Below, piece after piece: positions 32,332 to 60,447 of a stretch of 64,000 nucleotides of DNA (position 1 is its first letter; each line of letters starts with the position of its first letter). The stretch spans positions 391,085-455,084 of the forward strand of contig JAEINU010000002.1 in the NCBI GenBank assembly GCA_016342685.1, read 5' to 3'. Below the pieces are notes generated by a model. The model worked only from the letters and a program-made list of their open reading frames with translations. It did no database searches and had not been told where the DNA came from. The DNA comes from Bacteroidales bacterium. Lineage in GTDB: Bacteria > Bacteroidota > Bacteroidia > Bacteroidales > UBA12077. The position numbers were made by a program, and so were the translations under genes.

Positions 32332-34614
32332 ATGAGAAAAATACTAATAACATCCCTAATCATCTTTGTAACAATTGCAAGTTCATTTGCACAAGGAACT
32401 TATGAAGATTACCAACGAGCCGAAAAATATCTGCATTTCAATGTGTATAACTTGGTTCAAAACCTTTACTTAAATCCAAATTGGATTGATAAAACCAACG
32501 ATTTTTGGTATAAAACGGAAATTGAAAACGGGCATCAATTTAAATTAGTGTTAAGTTCAAAAAATGAAGTTAAACCCGCATTCGATCATCAGAAATTAGC
32601 AAAAGCTTTAGAAACAGAATTGGATAAAACTGTTAATCCTGACTCGCTCCCATTTTCAAAGATCAAGTTTAAAGATAAAATGAAAACTGTTATGTTTAAA
32701 GTAGATACCCTCAACTTTAAATATGATCTGAAAAAGAACATTTTATCACAATACACTCCAAAGAAAAAGGATCTGAAAAAGAACGAATACAAATCACCCG
32801 ATGGAAAATGGATTGCATTTGTTAAAGACTATAATTTGTATTTAAGGGATATCAAAACCGAAGAAGAGTTTCAATTAACAACAGATGGTGTTGATTTATA
32901 CGATTATGCAACTCCAATTGATTGGTACAAAATCGTTGATGAATCGGTTGGCGACACTTACGATCCTGGAATTTATGTTGAATGGTCGCCCGATTCTAAA
33001 AAATTTATGGCCATTAAGCTTGACCGTAGAAACAGAACAAAATTGTTAATGTATCAATCTTTACCCGATAGCGGAATGCGTGCAAAAGTTTGGTCATACG
33101 AAAGAGCTTTACCTGGCGAAAATAGTATCCCATTTCAGAACTTTTACATTTTTGATGTTGAGAAAAAATCGAATGTAAAAGTTGATATCGAACCGATGGA
33201 AAATATTTGGTCGGGCTTTGCTCCTGCTTGGACTGCAGATAGCAAAACACTCTACTTTGCTCAAATGGCTCGATACTATAAAACCATTGATTTGTATTTT
33301 GTAAATCCTGAAACTGGCAAAACTACAAATCCGATTCACGAAGATGTAAAGACCATGATCGAATATCAGATGGTCGATTGTGAATTAGTGAACAAGGGTG
33401 AAAAAATTATTTGGATGTCGGAACAAGACGGATGGAGTCATTTGTATTTATACGATGGAAAATCTGGCAATTTGATTAATCAAATTACAAAAGGAGAATT
33501 TGTTGTTCGTGATATTATATATACCAACGATAAAAATGAGATAGTTTACTTTATTGCCAGTGGAAAAGAAAAGGGGCGTGATCCTTATTATAAACATCTC
33601 TACAAAATTAATTTCGACGGATCAGGAATGACGCTTTTAACTCCTGAAGACGCAGAACACGAAATTCAATTCTCTCCCGATTATAAATACTTTATAGACA
33701 ACTATTCCCGTGTTGATTTAAAACCAAAATCAGTTTTAAGAAGACTTTCAGATGGTAAACTTATAAATGAATTACAGGAAGCAAATATTGATAAGTTATT
33801 GGCAACGGGTTGGAAATATCCAGAGCGATTTACAGTTAAAGCACGCGATGGAAAAACAGATATTTATGGCGTTTTGCAATATCCATCGAACTTTGATTCA
33901 AATAAGAAATATCCGATTATTGATAATTCATATTCAGGACCACAAGCTGTAAATGTACCTAAATCTTTTCGTCGTGGAATTTGGAACGATTGGACACCAT
34001 TAGCTGAAGTTGGGTTTATTGTAATGCGAATTGATGGTATGGGAACAGCTATGCGTTCTAAAGCTTTCCACGATGTTTCTTATATGAATCTAGGTGATAT
34101 TGGAGCTTTAGATCATATTACAGGAATCAAACAATTAGCAGAGAAATATTCTTACATCGACACCAATAAAGTTGGGATTTTTGGACATTCAGCTGGTGGT
34201 TATGATGCAGCTCATGCGATTTTAACTTATCCTGATTTTTACAAAGTTGCCGTTGCAGCAGCAGGAAATCACGATCACAGAATGGCTAAAGCATGGTGGC
34301 CTGAGCAATATATGGGAGAACTCGGCGATCATTATAACGAACAATCAAATTTAACGATAGCTAAAAATCTTAAGGGGAAACTAATGCTAGCACATGGCGA
34401 TATGGATAATAATGTGAATCCTGCATCAACATATAGATTAGCTGCCGAACTAATTAAAAATAATAAAGATTTTGAGTTAGTGATAACTCCAAATAATAAC
34501 CATGGTGATTTGTGGGAAAACAAATATTTCATTCGCCGACGAATGGACTTTTTCGTAAAACACTTGTGGAATATTAAACCACCAAAAGAATTTGAATTTA
34601 AAGAATACAAATAA
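32332..34614 (+). CDS. S9 family peptidase, DPP-IV type
   Basis: Signal peptide; DPPIV_N propeller; catalytic 'GIFGHSAGGYDAAHAIL', 'HGDMDNNV', 'NNNHGD'. Confidence 0.93.
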   Translation: MRKILITSLIIFVTIASSFAQGTYEDYQRAEKYLHFNVYNLVQNLYLNPNWIDKTNDFWYKTEIENGHQFKLVLSSKNEVKPAFDHQKLAKALETELDKTVNPDSLPFSKIKFKDKMKTVMFKVDTLNFKYDLKKNILSQYTPKKKDLKKNEYKSPDGKWIAFVKDYNLYLRDIKTEEEFQLTTDGVDLYDYATPIDWYKIVDESVGDTYDPGIYVEWSPDSKKFMAIKLDRRNRTKLLMYQSLPDSGMRAKVWSYERALPGENSIPFQNFYIFDVEKKSNVKVDIEPMENIWSGFAPAWTADSKTLYFAQMARYYKTIDLYFVNPETGKTTNPIHEDVKTMIEYQMVDCELVNKGEKIIWMSEQDGWSHLYLYDGKSGNLINQITKGEFVVRDIIYTNDKNEIVYFIASGKEKGRDPYYKHLYKINFDGSGMTLLTPEDAEHEIQFSPDYKYFIDNYSRVDLKPKSVLRRLSDGKLINELQEANIDKLLATGWKYPERFTVKARDGKTDIYGVLQYPSNFDSNKKYPIIDNSYSGPQAVNVPKSFRRGIWNDWTPLAEVGFIVMRIDGMGTAMRSKAFHDVSYMNLGDIGALDHITGIKQLAEKYSYIDTNKVGIFGHSAGGYDAAHAILTYPDFYKVAVAAAGNHDHRMAKAWWPEQYMGELGDHYNEQSNLTIAKNLKGKLMLAHGDMDNNVNPASTYRLAAELIKNNKDFELVITPNNNHGDLWENKYFIRRRMDFFVKHLWNIKPPKEFEFKEYK

Positions 34615-34632
34615 TCACAATTAAGAAATTAA

Positions 34633-34721
34633 TGTCATGCTGAGCTTGTCGAAGTATGATTTCACTCTTCGACAAGCTCAGAGTGACATACAATTTGTCA
34701 TCTTGAGCCTGTCGAAAGATG
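34633..34721. repeat. REP-like palindrome, 1.5 units
   Basis: TGTCATGCTGAGCTTGTCGAAG...CTTCGACAAGCTCAGAGTGACA + TGTCATCTTGAGCCTGTCGAAAG. Confidence 0.85.
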
Positions 34722-34765
34722 AACGATCAAAATATAAATAATTGAAACTTTTAAAATATACAACC

Positions 34766-36315: not shown

Positions 36316-37278
36316 ATGCTAGTAATAAGCGAACAAGACATAATAAAAGCAGTTGAACCAATTGAATTGGTAAGTGCCATCGAGAAAGCCTATATCATTC
36401 AGGATAAAGCCAGCACAAACATTCCAAACAGAATGCACATCGATAATGATGAAAACACTTTACTGGTAATGCCAGGATTTATTGATAGTGTATTCGGCAC
36501 AAAACTGGTTTCTCTATTTCCTAAAAATACACAAGAGAATAAGCCTGTTCTAAATGGTGTAATGGTTTTAAATGATGCCAGAACCGGTGAAGCTTTAGCC
36601 ATGATTAATGGAAATAAACTCACTGCCATGAGAACTGGTGCAGTTGGCGCTACTGCTGTAAAATACCTTGCTCCCTTTGGTGCTCAAACCTTAGGAATTA
36701 TTGGTGCAGGAGTTCAGGCCTATCATCAAGCTTTAATTGTTATAGAACAACGCCCATTTAGGAAACTAATTATTTGTGATAAAAACCTAAGTAAAGCTGA
36801 AGTTGTAAAAGATGATTTAGAAACTAGACTTGAAAATATTGAGATTATTGCTACCGATGATTCAAATCAATTGGTTATAGATTCGGATGTTATTGTAACA
36901 GCAACGTCATCTAGCAAACCTGTTTTTGATCTCGATATGGAGAAAATTGAAAACAAAGTTTTTATAGGAATTGGATCTTACAAACCCGACATGCAAGAAC
37001 TACCTTTATCAATTTACAAAAAAACTGAAAAGGTTTACGTTGACACTTTACATGCAAAAGAAGAATGTGGCGATATCAAAATCCCACTCAATAAAGGTTT
37101 GATAAAAACTGAGAATATAATTCCTTTTAGCACAGTTCTTACAAGTGGAGAATTACTTGAAGAATCATCAATAAAGATCTTTAAATCAGCAGGAATGTCT
37201 TTATTCGATTTAACCGTTGCAGAGTTAATTTACAATAATGCCAAAGAAAAAGGTTTGGGTCAAGAAGTAAGTATATAA
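36316..37278 (+). CDS. Ornithine cyclodeaminase/mu-crystallin family; probable delta1-pyrroline-2-carboxylate reductase
   Basis: TAMRTGAVGATAVKYLAP, Rossmann 'LGIIGAGVQAYHQ', 'GIGSYKPDMQELP' in place of the OCD-type catalytic Asp segment; ATG at 36316 preferred. Confidence 0.85.
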   Translation: MLVISEQDIIKAVEPIELVSAIEKAYIIQDKASTNIPNRMHIDNDENTLLVMPGFIDSVFGTKLVSLFPKNTQENKPVLNGVMVLNDARTGEALAMINGNKLTAMRTGAVGATAVKYLAPFGAQTLGIIGAGVQAYHQALIVIEQRPFRKLIICDKNLSKAEVVKDDLETRLENIEIIATDDSNQLVIDSDVIVTATSSSKPVFDLDMEKIENKVFIGIGSYKPDMQELPLSIYKKTEKVYVDTLHAKEECGDIKIPLNKGLIKTENIIPFSTVLTSGELLEESSIKIFKSAGMSLFDLTVAELIYNNAKEKGLGQEVSI

Positions 37279-37279
37279 T

Positions 37280-37376
37280 CACACTTCGATAAACTCAGTG
37301 TGACAATTCTTAATAGTTGTCGTCATGCTGAGCTTGTCGAAGTAGACATCACTCTTCGACAAGCTCAGAGTGACAA
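37280..37376. repeat. REP-like palindromes
   Basis: CACACTTCGATAAACTCAGTGTGACA...GTCATGCTGAGCTTGTCGAAG...CTTCGACAAGCTCAGAGTGACA. Confidence 0.85.
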
Positions 37377-37388
37377 ATAAGATTTAAA

Positions 37389-53903: not shown

Positions 53904-54338
53904 ATGCCAAGCTTTGTAATTAGCGAAAAGTGTGATGGATGTAAGGCTCAAGATAAAACTGCCTGTCAATATATTTGTCCAAACGATTTAATGGTTTTAG
54001 ATAAAGAAAAAAATAAAGCATATAACCGTGCTGTTGATATGTGCTGGGAGTGCTATAGTTGTGTTAAAATTTGCCCTACACAAGCTATCGAAGTTCGTGG
54101 ATATGCAGATTTTATGCCACTAGGAGCTGTAGTACAGCCATTGAGAAGTACCGATTCTATTATGTGGTCGGTAAAATTCAGAAACAAAAAAATCAAACGA
54201 TTTAAGTTTCCTATTAGAACTACACCTGAAGGAACAATCGATCCTGATGCTGGTATGGAAACTACAACTGATGATCTAAAGAGTCCTCTGCTTAGAACAG
54301 AACCAGAATCTATTGGAACAGAACTTTACAAAAAGTAA
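53904..54338 (+). CDS. aprB: Adenylylsulfate reductase beta subunit
   Basis: CDGCKAQDKTACQYICPNDLMVLDKE...CWECYSCVKICPTQAIEVRGYADFMPLGA. Confidence 0.95.
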   Translation: MPSFVISEKCDGCKAQDKTACQYICPNDLMVLDKEKNKAYNRAVDMCWECYSCVKICPTQAIEVRGYADFMPLGAVVQPLRSTDSIMWSVKFRNKKIKRFKFPIRTTPEGTIDPDAGMETTTDDLKSPLLRTEPESIGTELYKK

Positions 54339-54376
54339 AAGACAAACTAAAAATTCCAAAATTCAAATAAATATCA
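54339..54376. repeat. Left arm of imperfect palindrome flanking the four-helix-bundle gene
   Basis: ...AAATTCCAAAATTCAAATAAATATC. Confidence 0.6.
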
Positions 54377-54748
54377 ATGAATCAATCTTCAAATAACAAA
54401 CCAGTTTATGATCTGGAAGAAAGAACCTTTCTTTTTGCTAAAAATATCAGAACTAGTTTAAGAAAATTGAAAAAAGATTCATTTAATCAAGATGATATTA
54501 AGCAATTAATTCGTTCTTCGGGTTCTGTTGGAGCAAACTACATTGAAGCTAACGAATCTTTAAGTAAAAAAGATTTTATTCATCGAGTAAAGATTTCAAG
54601 AAAAGAAGCCAAAGAAAGTATCTATTGGATAAGGTTATTAATTGCCTTTTCGAACACAGATGAGAAGAATAGTTTGGAAGTTTTACTACAAAAATCAACC
54701 GAATTAAAGAAGATATTGTCATCAATCATTGAGAAATCTCAAAAATGA
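54377..54748 (+). CDS. Four-helix-bundle protein (23S rRNA-IVP / bAvd-like)
   Basis: DLEERTFLFAKNIRTSLRKLKKD...QLIRSSGSVGANYIEANESLSKKDFIHRVKISRKEAKESIYWIRLL. Confidence 0.95.
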   Translation: MNQSSNNKPVYDLEERTFLFAKNIRTSLRKLKKDSFNQDDIKQLIRSSGSVGANYIEANESLSKKDFIHRVKISRKEAKESIYWIRLLIAFSNTDEKNSLEVLLQKSTELKKILSSIIEKSQK

Positions 54749-54750
54749 GA

Positions 54751-54800
54751 AATTAAATTTGAGATTTATTTGGAATTTATATTTTGTAATTTGGAGCTTA
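54751..54800. repeat. Right arm of palindrome flanking the four-helix-bundle gene
   Basis: GAGATTTATTTGGAATTTATATTTTGTAATTTGGAGC. Confidence 0.6.
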
Positions 54801-54833: not shown

Positions 54834-56723
54834 ATGAACTCAAATACATTTGAAACAGTTATTGTTGAAACTGACCTACTAATACTTGGTGGTGGTATGG
54901 CTGCTTGTGGTGCTGCTTTTGAAGCTGCTCACTGGGCAAAAAAACATAATAAGAAAGTAACTGTTGTCGATAAAGCATCGATGGAGCGCAGTGGTGCAGT
55001 TGCAATGGGACTTTCTGCAATTAATCTCTATTTAGGATTAAAGAATGGCAAAAACACCATCGAAGATTACGTTAACTACGTAAAGAATGACTTAATGGGT
55101 ATTACCCGCGACGATTTAGTTGCTAATATTGCCCGCCATGTAGATTCTTCTGTTCACCTTTTTGAAAAATGGGGCTTACCAATATGGAAAGATGAAGAAG
55201 GAAATTATGTAAACGAAGGTCGTTGGCAAATAATGATTCATGGTGAATCATATAAAAATATTGTTTCCGAAGCTGCAAAAAATGCCTTAAAAGAATTGGG
55301 TGAAAACGGTGAATATTACGAACGTATATTTATTACCGAACCTATTATGGATGGTGATCGTTGTGTTGGCGCTGCCGGTTTCAGTGTTCGCGAAAACAAA
55401 TTCTATATATTTAAAGCAAATGCAGTACTCGATGTTATGGGCGGTGCAGTTCATATTTTCCGCCCACGTTCGGTGGGTGAGGGATTAGGACGCTCATGGT
55501 ATCCTCCATTTAATTCTGGTGCTAGCGCGTATTTTACTTTGAAAGCTGGTGCTGAAATGACTTGTCAGGAAGTACGCTTTGTTCCTGTTCGTTTTAAAGA
55601 TTCATATGGTCCCGTTGGTGCTTGGTTCTTATTATTTAAATCAAAAGCCACAAATGCTAAAGGCGAAGATTATATGGAAACTCGAAAAGCAGAACTTGAG
55701 AATTGGGCTCCTTACGGAACAGCAAAACCAACTCCTGCCAATCTTAGAAACTACTTGATGCTTCAAGAGCTAGAAGAAGGAAACGGACCAATTTACATGA
55801 AAACCGACGAAGCTATTAAAGAACTAATGGCTGATATAAAAGACGAAAAACAAGCTAAACGTAAAATGAAAGAGCTTGAGTCTGAAGCTTGGGAAGATTT
55901 CTTAGATATGACTGTTAGCCAAGCTTTAAATTGGGCTTCACATAATATATCTCCTGAAGAAAGTCCTTCAGAAATTTCAGCTTGCGAACCTTATTTTATT
56001 AGTTCACATTCAGGCGCATCAGGTGCTTGGGTTAGTGGTCCAAAAGATTTATCTCCATCCGATGATTATCATTGGGGATACGATAATATGACTACTAAAA
56101 AAGGTTTATTTGCTGCTGGTGATGCTTCTGGTGCATCATCTCATAAATTCTCATCAGGTTCTTTTACCGAAGGTAGAATTGCTGCAAAAGCTGCTTTAGC
56201 ATTTATTATTGATAATGACGATGTAGCTAGTTTTGATGAAGGAAAAATCAAGGAATTAAAAGAAAAAATTCTTCAACCACTTGCTACTTTTGAAGAACAT
56301 AAAGATTATGCGAACGACGAAGATGTAAATCCGAATTTCATTAAGCCTAAAATGTTTATGTTTCGTTTACAGAAAATCATGGACGAATATGCGGGTGGAG
56401 CAACCGTAAACTTTAGAACATCAAAAGCCTTATTGGAAAAAGGTCTTGAGTTCTTAGAGTTTATGAAAGAAGATGCTGAAAAATTAGCTGCAAAAGATTT
56501 AAATGAGCTAATGCGTTGTTGGGAAAATGTTCATCGCATGTGGCAAGCCGAATCTCATATTAGAACAATGTTATTCCGCGAAGAAACTCGTTGGCCAGGA
56601 TATTATTTCAGAACAGATCATCCGAAAATGAAAGAAGATTGGAAAGCATTTGCAAATTGCAAATGGAGTCCAGAAACTGGAGAATGGGAAATGATTAAAC
56701 GAAATATTAAAGAACTTTTTTAA
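54834..56723 (+). CDS. aprA: Adenylylsulfate reductase alpha subunit
   Basis: 'VVDKASMERSGAVAMGLSAINLYLG', 'GRWQIMIHGESYKNIVSEAAK', 'FRPRSVGEGLGRSWYPPFNSGASAYFTLKAGAEMTCQEVRFVPVRFKDSYGPVGAWFLLFKSKATNAKGEDYM'. Confidence 0.97.
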   Translation: MNSNTFETVIVETDLLILGGGMAACGAAFEAAHWAKKHNKKVTVVDKASMERSGAVAMGLSAINLYLGLKNGKNTIEDYVNYVKNDLMGITRDDLVANIARHVDSSVHLFEKWGLPIWKDEEGNYVNEGRWQIMIHGESYKNIVSEAAKNALKELGENGEYYERIFITEPIMDGDRCVGAAGFSVRENKFYIFKANAVLDVMGGAVHIFRPRSVGEGLGRSWYPPFNSGASAYFTLKAGAEMTCQEVRFVPVRFKDSYGPVGAWFLLFKSKATNAKGEDYMETRKAELENWAPYGTAKPTPANLRNYLMLQELEEGNGPIYMKTDEAIKELMADIKDEKQAKRKMKELESEAWEDFLDMTVSQALNWASHNISPEESPSEISACEPYFISSHSGASGAWVSGPKDLSPSDDYHWGYDNMTTKKGLFAAGDASGASSHKFSSGSFTEGRIAAKAALAFIIDNDDVASFDEGKIKELKEKILQPLATFEEHKDYANDEDVNPNFIKPKMFMFRLQKIMDEYAGGATVNFRTSKALLEKGLEFLEFMKEDAEKLAAKDLNELMRCWENVHRMWQAESHIRTMLFREETRWPGYYFRTDHPKMKEDWKAFANCKWSPETGEWEMIKRNIKELF

Positions 56724-56749: not shown

Positions 56750-56862
56750 ATTAACAAAATCCAAATAAATTCAAAATTTCAGACTTCAAATCTCAAACAT
56801 TTTTAGTTTTTGAGATTTGTTTTTTGGGATTTATTTGGAATTTGGAGTTTGTTATTTGGTGC
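56750..56862. repeat. Intergenic palindrome (no gene inside)
   Basis: CCAAATAAAT (56761) / ATTTATTTGG (56829); CAAATCTCAAA (56787) / TTTGAGATTTG (56809). Confidence 0.8.
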
Positions 56863-56878
56863 TTTAAATAAAACTAAG

Positions 56879-58105
56879 ATGAATATTAAACCTGTATTGG
56901 TTATTGGCGGTGGAATTAGTGGCGTAACAAGTGCTGTTGAAATTGCTGAAGTTGGAAAAGAAGTTATTCTTATCGAAAAAAATCCATATTTGGGAGGTAA
57001 TGTGGTTAAGTTTAATAACTACTTTCCAAAACTTTGTCCCCCAACTTGTGGTTTAGAAATCAACTTTCGAAGAATAAAACAAAATCCAAGAATCAAATAT
57101 TTTACTTCTACTGAAGTTATAGAAGTTACCGGAGAAAAAGGTGATTTTAAGGTTAAGATGAAAACGAAACCACAGTACATTAAAAATAACTGTACTGCTT
57201 GTGGAAAATGTGCTGAAGTTTGTCCCGAAGAAAGACCAAACGAATTTAACTACGGATTTACCAATACCAAAGCAGCATATTTACCTCACGAAATGGCTTT
57301 CCCGTACAAATTTCAGATTGATGATGAATTTTGCAAAAAAGAAGCTTGCAATAAATGTGTTGAAGCTTGTGAATACAATGCCATTGATTTATCTGCTAAG
57401 GAAGAAATTTCTGAAATAGAAGTAAGTTCAATAATTATAGCAACTGGTTGGAAAAACTACGATGCATCGAAAATAGAAAACTTGAATTATTCTAATTCAC
57501 AGAATATTATTACAAATGTTGAGTTTGAGAGATTTATTGCATCGAATGGCTTAAATGAAAATAAACTACTTCGCCTTTCTGATAATACCGAACCTAAAAA
57601 AATAGCTTTCGTACAGTGTGCTGGTTCTCGCGACGAGAATCATTTACCTTACTGCTCTGCTGTTTGTTGCTCGGCGTCGTTAAAACATGCTTTAACTATT
57701 CAGGAATTGTATCCAGAAGCTGAAGTAAAGATTTTTTATATTGATATGCGCGTTGCTGGTCGCAATGAAGATTTTTTAGTAAAGGTTCAAGAGAATAAAA
57801 ACATTGAGCTGGTTAAAGGAAAAGTTGGGAAAATCAGTGAAACTGAAAACAATAATTTAATTCTTGAAGCAGAAGATATTCTTTCTGGGAAGAAAATAAA
57901 ATACGAAGCTGAAATGGCTATTTTGGCTACAGGCATTGTCCCTTCAGATATCAAGTTTGATTTGAATAAAGATCAAAATCAATTTATTACTGATTTACAA
58001 AAAGATGGAATTATTCCGGTAGCATGCAGTCGTAAACCAATGGATGTATCATCATCGGTAAAAGACGCTACAGCGGCTGCAGTTAAAGCAATACAGATCA
58101 GTTAA
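56879..58105 (+). CDS. qmoA: QmoA, HdrA-like FAD/Fe-S protein; ATG at 56879 preferred
   Basis: MNIKPVLVIGGGISGVTSAVEIAEVGKEVILIEKNPYLGGNVVKFNNYFPKLCPPTCGLEINFRRI; CTACGKCAEVCPEERPNEFNYG. Confidence 0.93.
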   Translation: MNIKPVLVIGGGISGVTSAVEIAEVGKEVILIEKNPYLGGNVVKFNNYFPKLCPPTCGLEINFRRIKQNPRIKYFTSTEVIEVTGEKGDFKVKMKTKPQYIKNNCTACGKCAEVCPEERPNEFNYGFTNTKAAYLPHEMAFPYKFQIDDEFCKKEACNKCVEACEYNAIDLSAKEEISEIEVSSIIIATGWKNYDASKIENLNYSNSQNIITNVEFERFIASNGLNENKLLRLSDNTEPKKIAFVQCAGSRDENHLPYCSAVCCSASLKHALTIQELYPEAEVKIFYIDMRVAGRNEDFLVKVQENKNIELVKGKVGKISETENNNLILEAEDILSGKKIKYEAEMAILATGIVPSDIKFDLNKDQNQFITDLQKDGIIPVACSRKPMDVSSSVKDATAAAVKAIQIS

Positions 58106-58109
58106 AATT

Positions 58110-58230
58110 GAAAAATAACAAATGACAAACTTCAAACTCCAAATAAATTTTAAATCCCAATTTTCAAAACCGAGAGTTTTGGATTTTGATATTGAGATTT
58201 AAAATTTATTTGTGATTTGTTTTTTGTCTC
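58110..58230. repeat. Intergenic palindrome with perfect 17-bp arms
   Basis: CAAATAAATTTTAAATC (58140-58156) / GATTTAAAATTTATTTG (58196-58212). Confidence 0.85.
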
Positions 58231-58267: not shown

Positions 58268-60379
58268 ATGGATAAAAAAGTTGGAGTTTATATATGTTCG
58301 GGTTGTGAAATTGGTAAAAGCATCGATATAAATAAACTTGGTCAGGTGGCCTCAGAACAAAACGTTTCTATTTGCAAAAATCACTCATCTCTTTGCTCAA
58401 TCGAAGGATTTGATTTAATCAATAATGATATTGCCTCAGAAAATCTCGATAAGATTATAATTGCAGCATGTTCTCCACGTGTAAAAACTGAGGTATTTGA
58501 TTTTCCTGAAAATATTTTGGTCGAACGCACAAATATTCGTGAACAAATTGCATGGAGCATGGAACCGGGCGACGAAGACACTCAAATGGCAGCGGAAGAT
58601 TATCTTAGAATGTCGATTGCAAAAGTGAATAACACTGAAGTTCCTACACCATTTATTTCTGAAAATTTAAGCTCAGATATATTGGTTGTTGGCGGAGGAA
58701 TAACCGGGATAACAGCCGCCATTGATGGAGCAAAAGCGGGTTATAATATTCACTTAATCGAAAAAGAACCAAAGCTTGGTGGTTGGTTAAACAAACTGTA
58801 TAAACAAATTCCTTACTCTGCGCCCTACAATGCTTTAAAAGAAACAGAACTAGAAAATAGAATAAAGGAACTGGAACAATACGAAAACATTCAAATCCAC
58901 ACATCTACAACAATAAATCAAATTGATGGTCAGCCTGGTCAGTTTGAAGTTTCGCTTCAGAATAGTAAGAATGAGAAAATAACAGTTGGCTCAATTGTTA
59001 CATCCACAGGATGGCAACCGTACGATGCAAACAAACTTTCTCACTTAGGATATGGCAAATCGAATGTAGTTACGAATGTTGAGTTCGAAGAATTTGTAAA
59101 AAACAAGCCCGACAAAGAGCTTCCTAAAAACATTTTATTTATTCAATGTGCAGGTTCACGCGATAAAGATCATCTCCCCTATTGCTCGGCATTTTGCTGC
59201 GCCACAAGCTTAAAACAAGCAACATACATTCGTGATTTAAGTCCTGATTCAAATGTATTTGTAGTTTATAAAGATATTCGCACCTTAGGATTGTACGAAG
59301 AGTTTTACAAAGAAGTACAAAAAGATGATCAGATCTTCTTCACAAAAGGTGAAATTCAAGAAATAATAGAAAGTGAGAATAAGTTAAAAGTCAATGTAAA
59401 AGACACTCTAATAGGTGAAGATATTTCTTTATCTGTTGATATGATTGTTCTAGCAACTGGCATGGTTCCTAACGGTACCGAAGATTTAAACCTGAATTAT
59501 AGATTAGGGAAAGGTTTACCAGAATTAAAATATAACTTTTCCGATTCGCACTTTATATGTTTCCCTTACGAAACAAGACGTACAGGAATTTATGCTGCTG
59601 GTAGCTTACGTGCCCCAATGGATATTGCATCGAGCAAATCGGATGCATCAGGAGCTATGTTAAAGGCTATTCAAACTATTGAGGCAACTAAACGTGGCGA
59701 AGCAGTTCATCCAAGATCTGGTGATAAATCGTACCCCGACTTATTTTTAGATCGTTGTACTGATTGTAAAAGATGTACCGAAGAATGTCCGTTTGGAGCT
59801 TACGACGAAACTGAAAAAGGGACACCACTTCCAAATCCAAATCGTTGTCGCAGATGTGGAATTTGCTTAGGAGCTTGTCCAGAGCGAGTTATCAACTTTG
59901 CTGATTACTCTATAAATAGTGTTTCGGCAATGATTAAATCCGTTGAAGTGCCTGATGAATTTGAAGAAAAACCAAGAATTCTGGTTTTTGTTTGCGAGAA
60001 CGATGCTTATCCTGCAATGGATATGGCCGGTCAGAAAGGTCTGAAATACAGTCCTTATGTTAGAGTAATACCTGTTCGTTGCATTGGATCTATAAATAAG
60101 GTTTGGATCTCCGATGCTCTTTCGAAAGGTTACGATGGAATTTTACAAATTGGTTGTAAACCTGGCGATGATTATCAATGTCATTTTATACACGGTAGTG
60201 AATTAACGGAAAAACGTGGTGAAAACATTCAGGAAACTCTGGAAACCATGATGCTTGAACCGGAAAGAATGAGAACCGAATTTGTAGAAATTACTGATTA
60301 CGATAAAATCCCACAAATCATTAATGATTATGTGGAAGAAATTGAACTGATTGGACCAAATCCATTCAAAGACATGTAA
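58268..60379 (+). CDS. qmoB: QmoB, HdrA/MvhD-like FAD/Fe-S protein
   Basis: 'DILVVGGGITGITAAIDGAKAGYNIHLIEKEPKLGGWL', ferredoxin domain CTDCKRCTEECPFGAY...CRRCGICLGACPERVI, MvhD-like C-terminus 'GCKPGDDYQCHFIHGSELTEKRGENI'. Confidence 0.93.
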   Translation: MDKKVGVYICSGCEIGKSIDINKLGQVASEQNVSICKNHSSLCSIEGFDLINNDIASENLDKIIIAACSPRVKTEVFDFPENILVERTNIREQIAWSMEPGDEDTQMAAEDYLRMSIAKVNNTEVPTPFISENLSSDILVVGGGITGITAAIDGAKAGYNIHLIEKEPKLGGWLNKLYKQIPYSAPYNALKETELENRIKELEQYENIQIHTSTTINQIDGQPGQFEVSLQNSKNEKITVGSIVTSTGWQPYDANKLSHLGYGKSNVVTNVEFEEFVKNKPDKELPKNILFIQCAGSRDKDHLPYCSAFCCATSLKQATYIRDLSPDSNVFVVYKDIRTLGLYEEFYKEVQKDDQIFFTKGEIQEIIESENKLKVNVKDTLIGEDISLSVDMIVLATGMVPNGTEDLNLNYRLGKGLPELKYNFSDSHFICFPYETRRTGIYAAGSLRAPMDIASSKSDASGAMLKAIQTIEATKRGEAVHPRSGDKSYPDLFLDRCTDCKRCTEECPFGAYDETEKGTPLPNPNRCRRCGICLGACPERVINFADYSINSVSAMIKSVEVPDEFEEKPRILVFVCENDAYPAMDMAGQKGLKYSPYVRVIPVRCIGSINKVWISDALSKGYDGILQIGCKPGDDYQCHFIHGSELTEKRGENIQETLETMMLEPERMRTEFVEITDYDKIPQIINDYVEEIELIGPNPFKDM

Positions 60380-60390
60380 ATTGAGTTAAA

Positions 60391-60447
60391 AGTTACAAGT
60401 TCTGAGTTTAAAGTACACTCAGAACCTTAAACATTAAACTTGGAACT
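60391..60447. repeat. Small intergenic palindrome, different family
   Basis: AGTTACAAGTT / AACTTGGAACT outer; GTTCTGAGT / ACTCAGAAC inner. Confidence 0.65.

Follow-up and report, generated by a model that had tools for sequence, protein, structure and literature searches.

We conclude that the four-helix-bundle (IVP/S23) gene between aprB and aprA in the window (the whole analysed stretch of 64,000 nucleotides, on contig C23 of the Bacteroidales genome G000) and the inverted arms of 7-nt repeats around it probably form one small selfish element of ≈0.45 kb, an intergenic relative of the intervening sequences (IVS) of 23S rRNA, with gene-free derivatives. The features of this locus are:

53904-54338, + strand: aprB, adenylyl-sulfate reductase beta, left neighbour (TIGR02060, 202 bits)
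54343-54377, no strand: left inverted arm with the heptad-like word AAATTCC/CAAATAA (35 nt; 77% complementarity between the two arms)
54377-54748, + strand: IVP/S23 four-helix-bundle gene, 123 aa, pI 9.7 (PF05635, TIGR02436, PDB 2rld)
54759-54793, no strand: right inverted arm, with a lag-7 array at window 54767
54834-56723, + strand: aprA, adenylyl-sulfate reductase alpha, right neighbour (TIGR02061, 875 bits)
56755-56844, no strand: gene-free heptad hairpin in the aprA-qmoA gap, same word as the window IVP arms (gap score 21; fold z -6.7)
56879-58105, + strand: qmoA-like gene, HdrA-family flavoprotein (NF040770, partial, 362 bits)
58124-58228, no strand: gene-free heptad hairpin in the qmoA-qmoB gap, same word as the window IVP arms (48 nt arms; gap score 26.5; fold z -6.1)
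58268-60379, + strand: qmoB-like gene, HdrA-family plus FlpD (profile matches)
60384-60440, no strand: gene-free heptad hairpin 3' of qmoB with another, AGTTTAA-like word (gap score 15; lag-7 array)

The gene at 54377-54748 encodes a 23S_rRNA_IVP/four helix bundle protein, which scored above the curated cut-off of both profiles (PF05635, 53 bits compared to 33.8; TIGR02436, 72 bits compared to 24) and matched PDB 2rld with E=1.6e-12. Thus, a 123-aa four-helix-bundle gene does part aprB from aprA, as the preliminary description of this DNA had proposed, and the TIGR02060 and TIGR02061 matches bear out the identity of its neighbours. The left arm spans the gap from the aprB stop codon to the IVP start codon, and the imperfect inverted arms described around the gene were confirmed by a pair score of 19 compared to a 99th percentile of 18.5 for mismatched-locus controls. 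Between the arms lies the IVP gene alone; PF05635 was the sole Pfam match there, and no Y1 HUH transposase was found.

The gene-free palindromes said to resemble these arms in the next two gaps of the operon are also real and have the same word. Their hairpin scores of 21 and 26.5 compare to a shuffled 99th percentile of 19.2 over 222 intergenic gaps (455 kb), and RNA folding gave z values of -6.7 and -6.1. The resemblance is one of 7-nt periodic words, however, and not of a single conserved sequence. The CCAAATAAAT word is limited to the apr-qmo operon in G000, and exact AATTCCAAATAAAT occurs only in this operon, at one contig edge and in one coding gene. The palindrome was therefore rejected as a single conserved mobile sequence. 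The hairpin at 60384-60440 is the fourth of the operon, with a heptad word unlike that of the other three, and the gene downstream of the qmoB-like gene is probably qmoC-like.

Inverted heptad arms proved to be general at IVP genes. G000 carries seven such genes, nearly all inside inverted arms whose word differs from pair to pair (AAGTTTAAAAGTTA, AAGCTTCTTGC, ACTGAATACTGA and others at separate loci), and across the genomes compared the arms consist of degenerate repeats of 7 nt in inverted orientation on the two sides of the gene, with a word that changes at almost every locus. Across 95 IVP loci from the genus and order, the median inverted-arm score was 15.5 compared to 10.0 for mismatched loci (p=4e-32), inverted matches exceeded direct ones (p=4e-8), and 49 of the 95 lay above the 95th control percentile. 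Self-match of the IVP flanks (70 nt per side) reached 0.45, 0.41-0.43 and 0.38-0.41 at lags 7, 14 and 21, compared to ≈0.30 at other lags, and the best lag was 7 in 108 of ≈135 scoring arm segments. By contrast, ordinary G000 spacers, the one genome from which controls for the lag test were taken, were flat, with a lag-7 self-match of 0.329 (293 segments), and we therefore rejected heptad hairpins as generic spacer filler.

A broad set of species from many phyla gave the same picture. This set was scanned with a 6-member IVP alignment, the 12-member one being too diverse, and comprised 77 testable loci of 80, three, including an archaeal one, having been left out for proximity to contig ends or low score. 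Repeats again appeared at lags 7, 14 and 21, and arm scores exceeded the control at 28 of 39 Bacteroidota loci and the 95th control percentile at 31 of 38 loci of other phyla (p=9e-19). Over both sets (95 and 77 loci), lag-7 self-match was 0.39-0.45 compared to 0.27-0.31, and p for inverted arms ranged from ≈1e-17 to 1e-32. The possibility that the flanks of other four-helix-bundle genes share no arms with the window palindromes was thus true of the sequence, the CCAAATAAAT word not being shared by other IVP flanks, but not of the architecture.

Both sets have left arms rich in G and right arms rich in C, and the element therefore has a polarity, which direct reading of the sequence shows to be reversed in the window's own copy. 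IVP genes in co-directional gaps are nearly always in sense orientation (78 sense and 1 antisense in the genus set; 54 and 2 in the broad set), and their products are basic (median pI 8.7-9.0). Arm mismatches were not enriched in sense-strand G-U pairs (89 vs 115), and selection on an RNA hairpin through such pairs was not supported. The basic pI, the sense orientation within operons and the words common to neighbouring gaps of one operon would also fit a normal host function of the IVP gene, such as RNA-binding regulation of the processing of operon mRNA, for which the intercistronic hairpins would be the cognate sites. We consider this very improbable: presence is scattered among close species, with 0 to 19 copies per genome, some copies are decayed or bear internal stops, and the occupied sites belong to unrelated host operons.

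Polymorphic sites were found; all genomes compared are drafts. At aprB-aprA, 5 of 12 species carry the IVP gene, and at least three gains or losses are needed there to fit the aprA tree; the gene is therefore not ancestral to this junction in all relatives. The IVP-free aprB-aprA gaps hold gene-free hairpins of a different word; clean empty sites occur at serC-serA. In 14 of 18 same-genus genomes, that spacer is 75-98 bp long, has no heptads and carries a conserved terminator-like hairpin (GACTCAAGGC...GCTTTGAGTCTTTTT), which is lost where the IVP element sits. The gap is occupied by an IVP gene with arms in G000 and in a second draft, G022; a third genome retains a decayed, deleted remnant that still begins AAAAGTCGATGGCA, and one of the 18 contigs is cut at the junction. 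In the occupied gap the whole ancestral spacer has been replaced, and no target-site duplication was seen. The gap after serA holds gene-free hairpins in some species and none in others (30-33 bp).

Identity between G000 and G022, the latter a draft with 8% contamination, climbs from a background of ≈70-88% to 92-98% over a tract that starts ≈170 bp before the serC-serA IVP gene and ends ≈240 bp after it. Such a tract would be expected from co-conversion during homing and equally from any chance recombination event. A second orthologous pair (L060/L062) showed a like decay of identity on both sides of the gene; most orthologous IVP pairs have no raised identity around the gene and look vertically inherited. 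In several pairs the gene and one arm are ≈90% identical or more, whereas identity in the other arm falls to 58-72% through gain, loss or shuffling of heptad units of an unchanged word. Between separate loci, IVP genes clearly share arm words at 75% protein identity or higher (8 pairs), weakly so at 45-75%, and not below.

Gene-free hairpins were surveyed in 455 kb of G000 and in samples of other genomes. The IVP-rich genome G048 contains 33 lag-7 arrays in 500 kb, compared to 1-11 at other lags. For 26 of these 33 gene-free arrays, the best match was to the arms of the five IVP loci of G048 itself, ahead of all 87 GC-matched loci (5% would be expected), and only 10 of the 33 lie in a clear inverted repeat. 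In G000, none of the seven arrays distant from IVP genes matches an IVP word of that genome, and gene-free copies of the window word are operon-local. The proposal that the palindromes are non-autonomous forms of the element is thus supported in G048 and, within G000, in the apr-qmo operon only. Local spread is also evident near metK in G022, where three IVP copies within 4 kb and a gene-free array all have a CAATNNN word; this cluster (L182, C122:39000-53000) also includes a NusG-like gene. Four IVP-less genomes showed no lag-7 excess. Two further repeats were recorded on G000 contig C23: an abundant family of other palindromes (TGTCACTCTGAGCTTGTCGAAG / CTTCGACAAGCTCAGTGTGACA) at window 34614-34765 and 37278-37388 and in many other spacers of the contig, and GGAGCTGTCCAAAAAGTCCTAAACCTGTCATTCCC, with an inverted partner ≈85 nt away, at 95093-95271, 200495-200919 and 220725-220981 of the contig (L115, L121, L122).

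A second gene family occupies similar arms. The aprA-qmoA gap of two relatives holds a GxxExxY gene (TIGR04256, 126 bits) with CCACAGATTCACAG arms, and the qmoA-qmoB gap holds one in two other relatives; since GxxExxY loci were seen in these apr-qmo gaps, the gaps of one operon can hold no gene, an IVP gene or a GxxExxY gene. Inverted arms were above control at 15 of 31 GxxExxY loci (p=6e-7), and the best lag of their arm words was 8-10 nt and never 7 nt. The arm period thus tracks the gene carried, 7 for IVP and 8-10 for GxxExxY.

These results bear on a model in which the hairpins are host-made or independent, slippage-prone spacer features, and IVP is a separate passenger gene that lands in hairpin loops or persists best there. 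Gene-free hairpins at many sites, including sites with no nearby IVP gene, the other-word hairpins of IVP-free aprB-aprA gaps and the interchange of no gene and GxxExxY in the same operon gaps all fit a passenger. We nevertheless judge it unlikely, as it does not account for the association of each period with its own gene, the lack of period 7 in ordinary spacers and in the IVP-less genomes, the joint absence of arms and gene from serC-serA in 14 species, or the common words of near-identical IVPs at distinct loci.

It is also unlikely, though compatible with a selfish element, that mobility depends on an enzyme supplied in trans, either a Y1 transposase of the IS200/RAYT type or a reverse transcriptase, working on the hairpins. 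Genomes with more IVP genes tend to have more copies of Y1_Tnp (rho 0.53), but this may simply mirror overall mobile load, and two IVP-rich drafts lack Y1_Tnp, several drafts being incomplete. A reverse transcriptase driver was not supported, as its number is uncorrelated with that of IVP (rho -0.02) and 14 drafts that carry five or more IVP genes have none. The accessory variability protein (Avd) of diversity-generating retroelements (DGRs) has a four-helix-bundle fold related to IVP. Unlike a DGR, the window element has no reverse transcriptase or variable repeat, and reverse transcriptase is missing from many IVP-rich genomes; G000 has one RVT_1 match, which lies on contig C4, and the window is on C23.

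The closest known system is the IVS of 23S rRNA with an S23p/IVP open reading frame, as summarized in PMC4990558 (citing Ralph and McClelland 1993/1994). In both, inverted repeats enclose a loop that encodes this protein family, and an IVS is likewise sporadic in distribution, apparently horizontally transferred and transcribed within host RNA (PMC4990558). By contrast, the element described here lies in the spacers of protein operons, aprB-aprA in the window, and it has degenerate arms of period 7 as well as forms that lack the gene. A search of 289 loci found no 23S rRNA motif, and a location inside 23S rRNA was rejected for them. The window element thus has an S23-family open reading frame between complementary arms and does not lie inside an rRNA gene; it would work like an rRNA IVS, with the same protein, but outside rRNA, and is therefore not filed as one. 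RAYT/REPIN systems (PMC3116915) have a similar layout: inverted copies of a palindromic repeat surround a gene, and further copies that lack the gene lie at other genomic sites, as seen for the IVP words in G048 but not in G000. IVP, however, is not a tyrosine HUH transposase, and the repeat here is a variable heptad word and not a fixed REP. The TAACTGA heptamers of Beggiatoaceae, Cyanobacteria and Bacteroidetes (PMC4679880) are also 7-nt intergenic repeats, present in some Bacteroidetes too, but form direct repeats of one fixed word before start codons, and the account of them in that source reports no association with IVP or inverted arms.

We propose the following mechanism for the selfish element. 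Located in operon spacers and almost always in sense, it would presumably be co-transcribed with its neighbours. We know of no catalytic function of IVP, and none was found within the element. An IVP homologue forms a pentameric ring (PMC4990558). The basic protein would bind the repeated heptads of the hairpin, and a word length of 7 would reflect that binding. Spread between species would occur by recombination between flanking host genes, gene-free hairpins would be internally deleted derivatives, and the arm words would drift through slippage and hairpin template switching. The mobile context suggested for orphan IVP genes is supported more broadly than proposed, by arms in the genus and in other phyla, polymorphic sites and clean empty serC-serA spacers, but no transposition machinery, target duplication or movement was seen. 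More tentatively, such elements might represent a widespread class of bacterial selfish hairpins, in which the cargo protein sets the word length of the arms (7 nt for IVP, 8-10 nt for GxxExxY) and reads the period instead of a fixed sequence, the arms drift freely, and spread relies on flank-homology recombination and not on an integrase or transposase of their own.

IVP/S23 proteins have been known since the early 1990s, and the mobility of IVP intervening sequences is a long-standing question on which the rule found here bears. The open-access papers searched contained no account of IVP genes together with heptad arms, which is not proof of novelty. Under this rule (a sense-oriented IVP gene, enclosed by inverted arms of 7-nt period, in an operon spacer, with empty sites that can be dated), the orphan genes annotated as 'four helix bundle protein' become a class of elements open to testing; the rule also ties IVP to a second orphan family, GxxExxY, and accounts for a common type of degenerate intergenic repeat in these genomes. 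Thus, the orphan IVP gene, found across many bacterial phyla, probably belongs to a small selfish DNA element so far unrecognised.
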